Positions 36,409 through 41,417 of a DNA stretch of 64,000 nucleotides are shown here, one piece after another. The notes under the pieces are model-generated. The model saw only the letters and a list, made by a program, of their open reading frames with translations, searched no databases and was not told where the DNA came from. Position 1 is the stretch's first letter. Each line of letters opens with the position of its first letter. The position numbers and the translations under genes were made by a program. The DNA comes from Kosakonia radicincitans DSM 16656 (GTDB lineage Bacteria > Pseudomonadota > Gammaproteobacteria > Enterobacterales > Enterobacteriaceae): contig NZ_CP018016.1 of the NCBI RefSeq assembly GCF_000280495.2, positions 4,402,001-4,466,000 of the forward strand, read 5' to 3'.

Positions 36409-37302
36409 ATGCGGGCCATTGATTACCTGAGATTAATGATGCTGGCGGCCATCTGGGGCGCGAGCTTTCTGTTTATGCGGATTGCCGCACCGGAATTCGG
36501 TGCCATTAACACCGCTTTTCTCCGCGTGCTGTTTGGCTTTCTTGGCCTGGCGGCACTGCTGGCGCTATTTCGCCATACGTTTCAGTTTTCCGGTAAGCTG
36601 CGCGCGGCCCTGCTGCTTGGAGTGATTAACTCCGGGCTGCCGTTTTTGATGTACTGCCTGGCCGCGCGTTGGCTGCCTGCCGGGTATTCCGCTGTTCTCA
36701 ATGCCACCACGCCGTTGATGGGCGCGCTGGCGGGCGTGGCGTTTTTTGGCGAACACCTGAGCGGGAAAAAGTGGGCGGGCGTGGTACTCGGGCTGGTGGG
36801 GATTTTGACGATTACCACGCTCGGTGAAATGCGCAACGTGCAGGAGGTCGCCGCTGGCGTGGCGGCGTGCCTGGTGGCGACCGGCTGTTATGGCGTTGCC
36901 GGTTTTCTCACCCGCAACTGGATAACGGCGCGCGGCGGGCTGGATCCGACGCTGGTCGCCTTCGGCAGCCAGGCGGGCGCCACGCTATTTTTGCTGCCGT
37001 TCTGCGCTTGGTCGATTAGCAGCGGCGCAACCATCAACTGGGCGCAGCCGTCAGTGTGGGCCTGCGTGCTGGCAGTCGGCCTGCTCTGCACCGCCGTGGC
37101 GTATATTCTCTATTTTCGCCTGATTGCCGATATCGGGCCGCTGCGCAGCCTGACTGTTACCTTTCTTATCCCGCCGTTTGCCGTGCTGTGGGGCTACCTC
37201 GTGCTGGGCGAAACGCTGAACGGTGGGTTTCTTATCGGCGCGCTGATTGTCTGCCTGGCAGTATGGCTGGTGGTCAGCCCGACGGCCGCGAAACGCCGTT
37301 AG
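36409..37302 (+). CDS. EamA/DMT-family exporter
   Basis: A 297-residue inner-membrane protein with ten hydrophobic helices and two EamA repeats, typical of drug/metabolite exporters. The first repeat starts LMMLAAIWGASFLFMRIAAPEFG; the second ends with the family pattern RSLTVTFLIPPFAVLWGYLVLGETL. AAGGAG lies 7 bases before the ATG. It may export amino acids or related metabolites; the substrate is unknown. It is divergent from a LysR regulator, which probably controls it. The Anbu operon begins 170 bases downstream, on the same strand but with its own promoter. Confidence 0.89.
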   Translation: MRAIDYLRLMMLAAIWGASFLFMRIAAPEFGAINTAFLRVLFGFLGLAALLALFRHTFQFSGKLRAALLLGVINSGLPFLMYCLAARWLPAGYSAVLNATTPLMGALAGVAFFGEHLSGKKWAGVVLGLVGILTITTLGEMRNVQEVAAGVAACLVATGCYGVAGFLTRNWITARGGLDPTLVAFGSQAGATLFLLPFCAWSISSGATINWAQPSVWACVLAVGLLCTAVAYILYFRLIADIGPLRSLTVTFLIPPFAVLWGYLVLGETLNGGFLIGALIVCLAVWLVVSPTAAKRR

Positions 37303-37357: not shown

Positions 37358-37374
37358 CGCCTCAAAATGGTGCA
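37358..37374 (+). promoter_or_regulatory. possible NtrC half-site upstream of Anbu operon
   Basis: CGCCTCAAAATGGTGCA keeps the right half (GGTGCA) and spacing of the NtrC site TGCACC-N5-GGTGCA perfectly, but the left half matches only 3 of 6. It lies about 77 bases upstream of the expected sigma54 start. Another enhancer protein is equally possible. Confidence 0.35.
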
Positions 37375-37416
37375 TTTGCGCCTGTACTCACCACGAAAAC
37401 GCATTGCCAGCCATGC

Positions 37417-37432
37417 TGGCATGCTTTCTGCA
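37417..37432 (+). promoter_or_regulatory. sigma54-type promoter of Anbu operon
   Basis: TGGCATGCTTTCTGCA has GG and GC exactly 10 bases apart and differs from the TGGCAC-N5-TTGCA consensus at two positions. The start would fall near 37443, about 30 bases before the first gene. Confidence 0.7.
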
Positions 37433-37472
37433 TTTTTACAGAATCTTCACACGCGCAATGCAGGGGATGACA

Positions 37473-38906
37473 ATGATAAAAATAACGCTTCCGACAGCAC
37501 CTTACTACGATGAGATGCTCAGCGCAGAGGGCAGTCAACGCCAGCATTACGATGCCTGGTGGCAGTGGCTTCAACAGACCGACCAGCACGCCATCCATCA
37601 AAAGAAAGAACAGGCAGAACTGTTATTTCACCGGGTGGGCATTACCTTCAACGTTTATGGTGAAGAGGGAGGCACCGAACGCCTGATCCCCTTTGACAGC
37701 GTACCGAGAATTATCCCGGCCCATGAGTGGCGCACTCTCGATCAAGGCATCCGCCAGCGCGTCAAAGCGCTGAACGCTTTCCTGTACGATATCTACCATC
37801 AGCAAAATATCCTTAACGCCGGTATTGTTCCGCGCGAGCAGGTTCTGGCGAACGAGCAGTACCAGCCCTGCATGCAGGGCGTGGATCTGCATAACAATAT
37901 TTACGCTCACATCACCGGTATCGACATGGTACGTAACAGCGATGGCCGCTATTACGTGCTGGAAGATAACCTGCGCACTCCGTCCGGCGTCTCCTATATG
38001 CTGGAGAACCGCAAGATGATGATGCGCCTCTACCCGGATCTCTTCGCCAGCCAGCATATTGCGCCGGTGGAGCGCTACCCCGGTTACCTGCTGCAAACCC
38101 TGCGTGAAAGTACCCCGGTGGACGATCCCACGGTGGTGGTGATGACGCCAGGGCGTTTTAACAGCGCCTATTTTGAGCACAGTTTTCTGGCACAGCAGAT
38201 GGGTGTTGAGCTGGTAGAAAGCGCCGACTTGTTCGTCAAAGGCGGCGCGGTCTATATGCGCACCACTGAAGGCCCGTGCCGGGTGGATGTCATCTACCGC
38301 CGCATTGACGATGCGTTTCTCGATCCGCTGGCGTTTCGCGCCGATTCGATGCTCGGTGTTCCGGGCCTGCTGTCGGTCTACCGGTCGGGCGGCGTGGTGC
38401 TGGCGAACGCGATTGGCACCGGCGTGGCCGATGATAAATCCATTTACCCCTATGTGCCGGACATGATCCGCTTCTACCTCAGCGAGGAGCCGATTCTCGG
38501 CAATATCGCCACCTGGCAGTGCCGCAAGCCCGACGATCTTAACTATGTGCTCGCCCATCTCGACAGCATGGTAGTGAAAGAGGTTCACGGTGCGGGCGGG
38601 TACGGCATGCTGGTCGGCCCGAAATCGACCCGCCAGCAGATTGAGGATTTCCGCAAGCGGCTGCTGGCGAACCCCGGCAACTATATTGGCCAGGAGACGC
38701 TGGCGCTCTCCACCTGCCCGACCTTTGTCGAAGAGGGGCTGGCGCCGCGCCATATCGATCTGCGCCCGTTTGTGCTCTCTGGCGAAGAGGTTCGCCTGGT
38801 GCCGGGCGGCCTGACGCGCGTGGCGCTGAACGAAGGTTCGCTGGTGGTGAACTCGTCGCAGGGCGGCGGCACCAAAGATACCTGGGTGATGGAGGAGGAT
38901 GAATGA
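37473..38906 (+). CDS. circularly permuted ATP-grasp protein (DUF404/DUF407)
   Basis: This 477-residue protein belongs to the circularly permuted type 2 ATP-grasp family. The blocks are clear: RVKALNAFLYDIYHQQNIL (about 90-108), YVLEDNLRTPSGVSYMLENRKMM (about 161-183), VDVIYRRIDDAFLDPLAFR, and the loop VVKEVHGAGGYGMLVGP with a downstream DLRPFVL. It should activate a carboxylate with ATP and join it to an amine, giving an amide or peptide bond. The start is the ATG at 37473, with AGGGG 6 bases upstream; earlier in-frame ATGs at 37458 and 37467 are less well placed. First gene of a four-gene operon; stop and next start overlap by 4 bases. Confidence 0.85.
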   Translation: MIKITLPTAPYYDEMLSAEGSQRQHYDAWWQWLQQTDQHAIHQKKEQAELLFHRVGITFNVYGEEGGTERLIPFDSVPRIIPAHEWRTLDQGIRQRVKALNAFLYDIYHQQNILNAGIVPREQVLANEQYQPCMQGVDLHNNIYAHITGIDMVRNSDGRYYVLEDNLRTPSGVSYMLENRKMMMRLYPDLFASQHIAPVERYPGYLLQTLRESTPVDDPTVVVMTPGRFNSAYFEHSFLAQQMGVELVESADLFVKGGAVYMRTTEGPCRVDVIYRRIDDAFLDPLAFRADSMLGVPGLLSVYRSGGVVLANAIGTGVADDKSIYPYVPDMIRFYLSEEPILGNIATWQCRKPDDLNYVLAHLDSMVVKEVHGAGGYGMLVGPKSTRQQIEDFRKRLLANPGNYIGQETLALSTCPTFVEEGLAPRHIDLRPFVLSGEEVRLVPGGLTRVALNEGSLVVNSSQGGGTKDTWVMEEDE

Positions 38907-39835
38907 TGCTAAGCCGCACAGCCAGCGAACTGTACTGGATGGCCCGCTACCTGGAGCGGGCAGAGAGCTTTGCCCGGGTGCTGGATGTTACCTGGAAGCT
39001 GTCAATGATGCCGCGCCACCGCCAGCAGCAACACGATTTGGCGCTGCCGCTCAATCTCACCTTTTCCCATGAGCTGTTTCAGCAGCGTTACGCCCGCTTT
39101 TCCATGAACAACCTGCTGAACTTCTTCGCCCTTGATAGCCACAACCCGAGCAGCATTTATAGCTGTATTGAAATGGCGTGGAATAATGCCCACGCGGTAC
39201 GCGGCAGCCTGTCGTCAGAAGTGTGGGAGTGCATCAACACCACGCGTATCGACATCCGCAATCTGCGTCAGTCCGGGGTGGATAAAATCGGTATTGATAC
39301 CTTTTTTGACTGGGTAAAAGAGCGCTCGCATCTGTTTCGAGGCGCGATGTTCGGCACGTTGTTGCGCAACGATGCGCAGTGTTTTATTCGTGTCGGTACG
39401 CTGATTGAGCGCGCCTACGCCACCGCCCAACTGCTGGCGCTTAAAGATCAGCAACTGAACAACGATCCGGATCCAGTGCGTGAATATTATCGCCTCGACA
39501 CCCTGCTGCGCGCGGTGAGCGCCCGCGAGGCCTATCACAGTATTTACCGCCAGCCGATCAGCCGGGAAACCGTCAGCGAACTGCTGGTGTTCCGTAATGA
39601 TGTGCCCCGTTCGCTGCATGCCTGCGTGGCGGATCTGGTACAGCAACTGGAGATGATCGGTAATACGCGGGCGCATGTTCCGCTGCGACGGGCGCACCTG
39701 CTGCATGTGGAGCTGCGCTTTGGTTCCCTCGACGAGGTGATGGAGCAGGGGCTGCAAAACTGGCTGAACCACTTCCTCACTCAAATTAACGAACTGGCCG
39801 ACAGCATTCGCCAGACTTATCTGGAGGCGATATGA
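38903..39835 (+). CDS. alpha-E domain protein (DUF403)
   Basis: The 310-residue, almost wholly helical protein is of the alpha-E (DUF403) family. It starts MMLSRTASELYWMARYLERAESFARVLDV, with glutamates and arginines repeating along the helices, and has the internal motif RNLRQSGVDKIGIDTFFDWVKERSHLFRGAMFGTLLR. No catalytic site is known. In genomes it travels with the permuted ATP-grasp and transglutaminase genes, so it may act as a scaffold or carry the product. It overlaps both neighbours by 4 bases, which suggests equal expression of a complex. Two ATGs stand side by side at 38903 and 38906. Confidence 0.85.
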   Translation: MMLSRTASELYWMARYLERAESFARVLDVTWKLSMMPRHRQQQHDLALPLNLTFSHELFQQRYARFSMNNLLNFFALDSHNPSSIYSCIEMAWNNAHAVRGSLSSEVWECINTTRIDIRNLRQSGVDKIGIDTFFDWVKERSHLFRGAMFGTLLRNDAQCFIRVGTLIERAYATAQLLALKDQQLNNDPDPVREYYRLDTLLRAVSAREAYHSIYRQPISRETVSELLVFRNDVPRSLHACVADLVQQLEMIGNTRAHVPLRRAHLLHVELRFGSLDEVMEQGLQNWLNHFLTQINELADSIRQTYLEAI

Positions 39836-40653
39836 AACTCACCATCAACCATTTAACGCATTACCAGTACGATGAAGAGGTGAAATTCAGCACCCAGTAT
39901 CTGCGGCTAACGCCGCAAAACTCCGCGCGCCAGCAGGTTAGCGAGTGGAAACTGACGCTGCCCGCCTCGGCCGTCGCCACCCATGATGCTTATGGCAACC
40001 TGATGCATGTGCTGACGCTGGACAGCCCGCACCAGGAGATTTTTATCCACGCTCAAGGGGTGGTGGAAATCGCCGATAATGTGGAAGAGAGCCAGGATAA
40101 CAGCGATGAAACGTTGTCGCCGCTGGTCTTTTTACGCGTCACGCCGCTGACGGAACCGGACGATCTGATCCGCGGTTTTGCCAGCCGCTATTACCGGGAA
40201 GCAGCGCCCGAAGAGAGCCTCACATCGCTGATGGCGGAATTACAGCTAAAAATGCCGTATACTCCCGGCGCGACGCATGTGCAGGACAGCGCAGCGGACG
40301 CATTCGCCAAAGGGAAAGGCGTCTGCCAGGATCATACCCATGTGTTTCTGGCCTGCTGCCGTAGCCTGAAGATCCCGGCGCGCTATGTCAGCGGTTATGT
40401 CTATAGCCGGGATACCGAGCACGTGGCGATGCATGCCTGGGCGGAAGCCTGGATCAACGACCGCTGGCACAGTTTTGATATCACCAACAATACCCGCCTG
40501 CTCAACCAGCATCTGCGGCTGGCGGTGGGGATGGATTATCTGGATGCCTGCCCGGTGCGCGGCAGCCGTTTGGGCGGCGGCTGCGAAGAGCTGTTTTCCA
40601 CCGCTGAAGTGAATCTGTTTACGCAACAGCAGCAACAGGTTCAGCAGCAATAG
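39832..40653 (+). CDS. transglutaminase-like protein
   Basis: The 273-residue protein has an N-terminal beta-sheet domain (MKLTINHLTHYQYDEEVKFSTQYLRLTP) followed by the transglutaminase core. The catalytic triad is readable: Cys in GVCQDHTHVFLACCRSL, His in VAMHAWAEAWIN, Asp in WHSFDITNNTR. Such bacterial enzymes act as cysteine proteases or acyl-transferases. The C-terminus ends in a run of glutamines (TQQQQQVQQQ), which may be a flexible tail or even a substrate-like segment. No signal peptide is visible, so it is cytosolic like its operon partners. Its real substrate is unknown. Confidence 0.86.
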   Translation: MKLTINHLTHYQYDEEVKFSTQYLRLTPQNSARQQVSEWKLTLPASAVATHDAYGNLMHVLTLDSPHQEIFIHAQGVVEIADNVEESQDNSDETLSPLVFLRVTPLTEPDDLIRGFASRYYREAAPEESLTSLMAELQLKMPYTPGATHVQDSAADAFAKGKGVCQDHTHVFLACCRSLKIPARYVSGYVYSRDTEHVAMHAWAEAWINDRWHSFDITNNTRLLNQHLRLAVGMDYLDACPVRGSRLGGGCEELFSTAEVNLFTQQQQQVQQQ

Positions 40654-40682
40654 CGTTAACTGTTATGTAGAAAGGTGAGGTA

Positions 40683-41417
40683 ATGACCTACTGTGTGGCC
40701 ATGCGTTTGTGCGACGGGCTGGTCTTCGCTTCTGACTCCCGGACCAATGCGGGCGTCGATCACATTGCGACGTTCAAAAAACTTCACGTTTTTCAGCGTG
40801 AAGGCGAACGGGTGCTGGTGATCCAGTCCGCCGGTAATCTGGCAACCACGCAGAGCATTATCAGTCTGCTGACCTCGCGTATCGAGAGCCAGCAGACGCC
40901 CAACCTGATGCAGGCCGAAACCATGTACGATGCCGCAACGCTGATCGGCGAAACGGTGCGGGAAGTTATCCACCGCGACAGCAAGGCGCAGCAAAACGGC
41001 AGCAACACCAACTTTGGCTGCAATATGCTGCTGGGCGGACAGATTGGCAACGAAGAGCACCGGCTGTTTCATATCTATCAGGAAGGGAATTTTATCGAGT
41101 CGACCAACGACACGCCCTACTTCCAGATTGGCGAAAGCAAGTACGGAAAACCGATTATCGATCGGGTGTTAACGCCAGATACGCCGCTGGAGCAGGCGAT
41201 GTGCTGCGCGCTGATCTCGATCGACTCCACGCTGCGCAGCAATCTCTCCGTCGGCATGCCGCTGGATGTGATGATCTACCGCCGCGAAAGTTTTCACGCC
41301 CGCGAACAGCAACGGATTATTGAAAGCGATCCCTATTTTATTGCCATCCGCAAAGCCTGGTCCGAAGGGCTGCTCAACACCTTCCGCCAGTTAACGCCCT
41401 TCCCCACTCAACCCTGA
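40683..41417 (+). CDS. Anbu, proteasome-like peptidase
   Basis: Anbu is a bacterial relative of HslV and the 20S proteasome beta subunit. After removal of Met1 the chain begins T1-YCVAMRLCDGLVFAS-D17, and Lys32 is in FKKLHVF, so the N-terminal Thr nucleophile and its Asp and Lys helpers are all in place. At 244 residues it is longer than HslV. AAAGGTGAGG precedes the ATG. No unfoldase gene (hslU, clpX) is adjacent. It closes the operon of ATP-grasp, alpha-E and transglutaminase genes, a group that recurs with Anbu. Peptidase activity is likely; the natural substrate is not known. Confidence 0.87.
   Translation: MTYCVAMRLCDGLVFASDSRTNAGVDHIATFKKLHVFQREGERVLVIQSAGNLATTQSIISLLTSRIESQQTPNLMQAETMYDAATLIGETVREVIHRDSKAQQNGSNTNFGCNMLLGGQIGNEEHRLFHIYQEGNFIESTNDTPYFQIGESKYGKPIIDRVLTPDTPLEQAMCCALISIDSTLRSNLSVGMPLDVMIYRRESFHAREQQRIIESDPYFIAIRKAWSEGLLNTFRQLTPFPTQP

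Follow-up and report, generated by a model that had tools for sequence, protein, structure and literature searches.

Introduction

Anbu is a relative of the proteasome whose operon has been named in two reports, where a peptide-ligase/peptidase role was proposed for it (PMC6376114, PMC5666114). The same reports, crediting Hervas 2008, mention that Anbu is induced in nitrogen-limited Pseudomonas putida, and the ATP-grasp protein of Yersinia bercovieri was found to release phosphate from ATP (PMC6376114/PMC5666114). We analysed the Anbu operon of Kosakonia radicincitans DSM 16656, which lies in a stretch of 64,000 nucleotides of contig NZ_CP018016.1 (positions 4,402,001 to 4,466,000; hereafter the window, in which all coordinates are counted and all described features lie on the + strand). 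We report a predicted sigma54 promoter and a predicted NtrC enhancer in front of this operon, for both of which the conservation in close relatives is strong support.

Candidates for a sensor of nitrogen starvation in P. putida have included the promoters of PP_2685 (Anbu) and PP_2688 (ATP-grasp), and a comparison of nitrate with ammonium gave log2 values of 4.44 for the Anbu gene and 3.99 for the ATP-grasp gene. In an earlier study of this bacterium, PP2685-2687 show changes of 6.6-11.1-fold, with 11.1 for PP2685; these values stand in the first of two limitation columns, which apparently compares nitrogen with carbon limitation. A paper of 2020 assigns PP_2685-2688 to NtrB/NtrC (PMC7801951/PMC8050072/PMC3325844). 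According to a survey of 2025, the sigma54 regulons predicted for alpha-, beta- and gammaproteobacteria include COG3484, the proteasome-type protease family to which Anbu belongs (PMC12316311). In Burkholderia cenocepacia, transglutaminase-fold genes of I35_5080-83 are described as shared targets of sigma54 and NtrC, with changes of -9.4 and -6.0 fold in an ntrC mutant (PMC5491218), and this is probably a parallel cluster. We also considered hvyA of Caulobacter, which encodes a transglutaminase homologue and has an NtrC peak, and set it aside: it is a different gene, and it goes up, not down, without ntrC.

Since the P. putida induction is already in print, nitrogen control of the Anbu operon is not new, and it is less novel than was thought in the original prediction, a first reading of the window made from its letters. 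In the literature that we searched, most subscription journals being outside the search, we saw no description of an NtrC/sigma54 promoter of this operon in enterobacteria, and we found no transcript data for the operon in the genus Kosakonia.

Results

A predicted sigma54 promoter precedes the Anbu operon

The original prediction proposed that TGGCATGCTTTCTGCA, placed 41 bases before the first gene, is a sigma54-type element with exact GG-N10-GC spacing. We found this element at positions 37417-37432, with the exact spacing and with its final base 41 nt 5' of the ATG of the ATP-grasp gene; it scores 10/12 against what we take to be the sigma54 consensus (TGGCAC-N5-TTGC context, GG-N10-GC). 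By itself, the pattern is not beyond chance in the genome, where TGGCAYGN4YTGCA occurs at 3 places in 6.12 Mb, versus 2 for the reversed pattern.

The conservation of the -24/-12 element in homologous operons, which had been suggested as a check, was then determined in 80 related loci. These are the best 80 of 453 matches, so they are biased to close relatives, and 79 of them were readable (L090 was dropped, its ATP-grasp end being missing). We observed a GG-N10-GC element of 9-11/12 before the operon in 79/79 readable loci and in the window, with its start 47-119 nt upstream of the first gene. When the same regions were submitted to 20 dinucleotide shuffles, a mean of 5.5 of the 80 upstream regions, and at most 9, reached 9/12. 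Because the element is present in 80/80 upstream regions against this mean, its conservation in close relatives is beyond chance. The original promoter prediction passed the conservation check proposed for it, with much more evidence behind it than at the outset. The same scan performed inside the operon gave 3/79 in the 350 nt before alpha-E and 1/80 before Anbu. Furthermore, columns for which we had not scanned are nearly fixed: T at position 1 in 79/80 regions, C at position 4 in 80/80, while the three final spacer positions are each T in 77-78/80. The genome contains one match to rpoN. Taken together, the conservation strongly supports a predicted sigma54 promoter before the Anbu operon, whose dependence on RpoN is, in this strain, a prediction.

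NtrC-type dyads lie upstream of the sigma54 element

A perfect NtrC half-site had also been noticed upstream of the element. It is real, TGGTGCA at positions 37368-37374, and belongs, as the right half, to a degenerate dyad at 37358-37374, CGCCTCAAAATGGTGCA, which scores 9/12 against TGCACC-N5-GGTGCA, presumably the NtrC consensus. Taken alone, the dyad of the window is not significant (P 0.18), and it becomes so through the comparison of loci. In Kosakonia arachidis (L035), a dyad of 11/12 is found at the same place, and six related loci have one of 12/12. Among 60 non-redundant loci (window included, less than 80% identity in the upstream DNA), 49 have a dyad of at least 9/12, versus 2.4, and never more than 7, in 200 mononucleotide shuffles. 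When all 80 rows are counted, 62 have such a dyad. The position of the best dyad shifts between genera, from -46 to -124 when counted from the -24 element, and these offsets fit a period of 10.5-10.75 bp, with a P of 0.0012 if unique offsets are treated as independent, which those of related genera are not. This phasing, suggestive only, is consistent with a bound activator that has to keep to the same side of the DNA helix in order to contact the polymerase. NtrC itself is encoded in the genome (816 bits). The conservation of the dyads thus strongly supports the prediction that the operon carries an NtrC enhancer, which NtrC would bind and activate from in this strain.

The consensus was checked in the genome, where TGCACYN5RGTGCA occurs at 5 places versus 0 for the reversed pattern. 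These perfect dyads precede hisJ, nac, glnH, ntrB (which adjoins glnA) and one LysR-like gene not named by NCBIfam at the threshold used. The best sigma54 score in the 250 nt following each of them is 10 for hisJ, 11 for nac, 10 for the LysR-like gene and 9 for ntrB, the latter inside the gene. The perfect dyad (L220; G000 C1:1102071-1102087) and a 10/12 sigma54 element stand before the last of these genes, judged LysR-like by eye and a possible further target of NtrC.

The operon contains the four known genes with intact active sites

Open reading frames and Pfam matches show four tightly packed genes in the window, in the order ATP-grasp, alpha-E, transglutaminase-fold and Anbu, in agreement with the families and the intact Anbu site first claimed. 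The circularly permuted (CP) ATP-grasp ligase has 477 residues (37473-38906) and is a relative of PDB 3n6x, with PF14403 and PF04174 above cut-off (549 bits for CP_ATPgrasp_2); its long invariant motifs are kept among 137 length-filtered sequences. Its start was set at the ATG at 37473, where the matches begin in most relatives, and not at the mechanical GTG at 37056. The operon copy is the single CP_ATPgrasp_2 match of the genome. The alpha-E protein (310 residues, 38903-39835) matches PF04168 above cut-off with 276 bits and is composed of two tandem halves with ER motifs at E18-R19 and E169-R170. The transglutaminase-fold protein (273 residues, 39832-40653) matches Bact_transglu_N and Transglut_core, and its C165, H201 and D216, which we take to be a catalytic Cys-His-Asp triad, are at least 98.5% conserved among 138 length-filtered sequences. 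Anbu, of the N-terminal nucleophile (Ntn) hydrolase fold, has 244 residues including Met (40683-41417) and gives 33.8 bits with Proteasome. It starts with M-T1, and T1, D17 and K32, all intact here, are at least 98.5% conserved among 147 length-filtered Anbu sequences. By sequence, it matches the structure 5nyw with an E-value of 1.3e-109, and it is 100% identical to the Anbu of K. sacchari.

The ATP-grasp/alpha-E and alpha-E/transglutaminase junctions are overlaps of 4 nt each, and 29 nt separate the transglutaminase-fold gene from that of Anbu. The gene order is the same in 78/80 related loci, the exceptions being L090, without ATP-grasp on a short contig, and L104, without a transglutaminase match. 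The operon of the window is the known four-gene Anbu operon, and the published Anbu operons show the co-occurrence of these families that the original prediction gave as known (PMC6376114, PMC5666114).

The sigma54 element beyond close relatives

A wide sample was made of 88 loci from 398 genomes, about one per genus, with a same-genus control (L205). In 59 of these loci, the ligase is linked to Anbu and the upstream region is readable. We observed that 21/59 reach 9/12 versus 10% in shuffles, and that 14/59 reach 10 versus 1.6%. The score of 9/12 was reached by 10/16 loci in the class of the window (L205 included; two of the ten elements are more than 200 nt away) and by 11/43 loci in other classes. 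Among additional named records, the score was 11/12 at -54 in Aeromonas caviae, 11/12 at -112 in Caballeronia and 10/12 at -170 in Acinetobacter.

The Anbu gene of Azospirillum stands alone, without a sigma54 element. At 29 loci, no ATP-grasp match on the same strand ends within 2.4 kb before Anbu; in two of them, L191 and L171, all four genes are present at wider spacing, and in several others a ligase lies nearby on the other strand or further off. An element of at least 9/12 is present in the 300 nt before Anbu at 1/29 of these loci. Therefore, the switch seems to go with the ligase set, suggesting that nitrogen control is a property of the ligase operon and not of Anbu alone, in a comparison that is confounded by lineage.

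Alpha-E is most simply read as a duplicated domain

By sequence, no relative of alpha-E with a solved structure was found at an E-value of 0.1. The model of alpha-E is all helical, with a pLDDT (predicted local distance difference test) of 91.8 and a pTM (predicted template modelling score) of 0.91, and its fold comparison matched only generic helical bundles. When the profile of residues 1-152 was aligned by hhalign with that of residues 153-310, 124 columns were aligned with a probability of 98.8% and an E-value of 5e-17; none of ten column shuffles reached 5%, and 0.16% was obtained with the reversed profile. The two halves have in common the signature Y/F-x-ERA-x-N-x-AR-x-LDV, in which E18-R19 and E169-R170 are invariant. 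The simplest reading of alpha-E is that of a duplicated domain carrying a similar motif twice, and this twin repeat gives structural work a starting point on the partner of the operon that is least understood. In L189, a natural fusion of ATP-grasp and alpha-E of 864 residues is encoded opposite Anbu, which argues that the two proteins act together.

Occurrence and neighbourhood of Anbu

Anbu is carried by 5/15 genomes of the genus, by 47/295 genomes sampled from the family and by 145/398 genomes of the phylum sample. Among the 88 wider loci, no extra conserved partner gene clustered in more than six loci. The open reading frames checked as possible partners were mutS in L125 and members of the ligase/alpha-E/transglutaminase set in L189 and L147. 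In L125, L127, L129, L130, L132 and L133, Anbu has no nearby ligase and is preceded on the same strand by a large open reading frame of one cluster, which in L125 is mutS; CP-ATP-grasp genes are found elsewhere in these six genomes. In L189, L147 and L144, ATP-grasp and alpha-E (fused in L189) are on the strand opposite Anbu, as assigned by Pfam in the first two and by sequence cluster in L144, therefore the neighbourhood persists without a shared operon. The genome of L149 (G681) holds Anbu and has no CP_ATPgrasp_2 match at all, the sole such case among 25 genomes searched, of which 23 have Anbu away from the ligase. In L225 (CP125156.1, Klebsiella), the alpha-E match falls into two pieces that lie in different frames, and the gene table lacks this gene; this record is a replicon of 5.37 Mb filed as a plasmid.

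Before the operon of the window, an EamA-type transporter is encoded at positions 36409-37302. It is present at full length with at least 92% identity in 4/15 genomes of the genus, all of them Anbu carriers. The fifth carrier (G006) has only fragments, and a 69% match occurs in the Anbu-less G011.

Discussion

We consider it likely that the Anbu operon is read from its sigma54 promoter through phosphorylated NtrC at low nitrogen, and that its four proteins make and cut an amide. When nitrogen is short, phosphorylated NtrC would bind at the conserved sites and switch on the sigma54 promoter, in this strain probably by looping to the sigma54 polymerase. The ATP-grasp protein most likely activates a carboxylate with ATP and joins an amine, according to what is known of its family and to the phosphate release of the Yersinia protein. 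Alpha-E may be its partner, as the operon order and the natural fusion suggest, and the cysteine-type transglutaminase-fold protein and the threonine-type Anbu ring, both with intact active sites, would exchange or cut the amide bond. Nitrogen would in this way be recovered or re-routed during starvation. The original proposal, an amide or peptide that is made, moved or capped and afterwards cut, is a fair inference from these active sites and the known families. An operon under nitrogen control that combines a ligase with two amide-cutting folds would fit a make-and-cut cycle moving nitrogen. The link of the switch to the ligase operon, and not to Anbu as such, suggests that all four proteins work in a single pathway related to nitrogen.

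Several observations weigh against this reading. The Klebsiella operon has no clear element (8/12), though its dyad scores 10/12; the best score in B. cenocepacia is 8/12 at -241, again not a clear element; and the perfect dyad before glnH is followed by a sigma54 score of only 6/12. In the wide sample, threshold 9 is reached by 3/10 genomes without rpoN versus 17/48 with an rpoN match, and threshold 10 by 1/10 versus 12/48, a comparison that omits G004 of L205 and counts 5 of the 48 rpoN matches below the family cut-off. As genomes without rpoN score alike at threshold 9, we rejected the wide set outside the gammaproteobacteria as strong support, and the sigma54 elements in other classes are weak evidence. 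The main texts on the nitrogen transcriptomes of Paraburkholderia phymatum, Azoarcus and Pseudomonas stutzeri do not mention transglutaminase, proteasome, ATP-grasp or alpha-E. In the published assays, no peptidase activity of Anbu was detected, including with proteasome peptides, and no complex of Anbu with its operon partners was obtained (PMC6376114/PMC5666114).

The main evidence against strict sigma54 dependence comes from P. putida, where in an rpoN mutant under nitrogen limitation PP_2686-2688 are still 14.2, 16.0 and 19.6-fold up, according to the 2020 paper; in the same table, PP_2685 (Anbu) is only 1.12-fold changed in the wild type. In addition, one of the two reports on the Anbu operon states that Anbu expression is moderate and constitutive, without change under various conditions (PMC6376114/PMC5666114). 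With the element being real, nitrogen induction could then come mainly from another, rpoN-independent promoter, for instance of sigma70 type with NtrC or another regulator. This 14-20-fold induction and the constitutive expression would agree with such a promoter, which we nevertheless consider unlikely given the element in 80/80 upstream regions and the NtrC dyads in 49/60 loci. Moreover, urtA-D, likewise assigned to NtrB/NtrC, also remain induced in that rpoN mutant, therefore the result may come from the mutant itself or from the way of sampling. A different possibility is that the promoter answers a sigma54 activator other than NtrC, such as NifA. Kosakonia is a diazotrophic genus, other sigma54-type activators are found in its genome as partial TIGR01818 matches below cut-off, and 11/60 non-redundant loci have no dyad of at least 9/12. 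NifA-type sites, on the other side, occur in 1/60 loci versus a shuffle mean of 3.1, and NifA control was rejected on this basis; with NtrC dyads in 49/60 loci, and with the P. putida operon assigned to NtrB/NtrC in print, we hold another activator to be very improbable.

Concerning the function, Anbu could be a general starvation protease that frees nitrogen from proteins, the ligase and the transglutaminase tagging the substrates. The proteasome fold and the nitrogen induction are in line with this idea, which has been proposed in print (PMC6376114/PMC5666114). We give it a small but real weight, as the operon includes no AAA ATPase, Anbu displayed neither activity on proteasome peptides nor partner binding in the published assays, and the ligase-distant Anbu genes mostly have no element (1/29), with lineage as a confounder. 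Within a make-and-cut pathway, one could also imagine a dedicated nitrogen-scavenging conjugation, in which the ligase would cap an amine or amino acid, alpha-E would hold the amide in its two like sites, and the transglutaminase-fold protein and Anbu would cut it to free the nitrogen; the Anbu of the operon would then act on small molecules as an amidase, not as a protease. This proposal is rather doubtful as it stands; if true, it would explain the missing peptidase activity and the nitrogen control tied to the ligase set.

The nitrogen-control part of the original prediction is thus backed by the conserved element, the dyads and the P. putida induction, and the P. putida rpoN mutant speaks against strict sigma54 dependence; as a whole, the first interpretation is partly supported. 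The substrate of Anbu has been a question since 2008, and the conserved NtrC/sigma54 switch tells when to look for it, during nitrogen starvation, and where, in enterobacteria with good genetics.

Compared with the known systems, the B. cenocepacia cluster I35_5080-83 is like the window in having transglutaminase-fold genes under sigma54/NtrC, and the main text of that report does not name Anbu, ATP-grasp or alpha-E (PMC5491218). The COG3484 survey puts the same protease in a predicted sigma54 regulon; its passage gives neither operon nor NtrC sites and takes the protease as a factor of protein quality control (PMC12316311). P. putida PP_2685-2688 is the same operon, induced by nitrogen limitation, and differs in that its induction survives an rpoN mutation and in that the operon of the window is known from sequence alone (PMC7801951, PMC8050072, PMC3325844). 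The Y. bercovieri/Pseudomonas Anbu operon has the same four families, order and Anbu catalytic residues as the window, without any difference in kind, and the passages of the two reports mention nitrogen induction and describe no promoter (PMC6376114, PMC5666114). What we present is a conserved, well-defined example of something already partly known.

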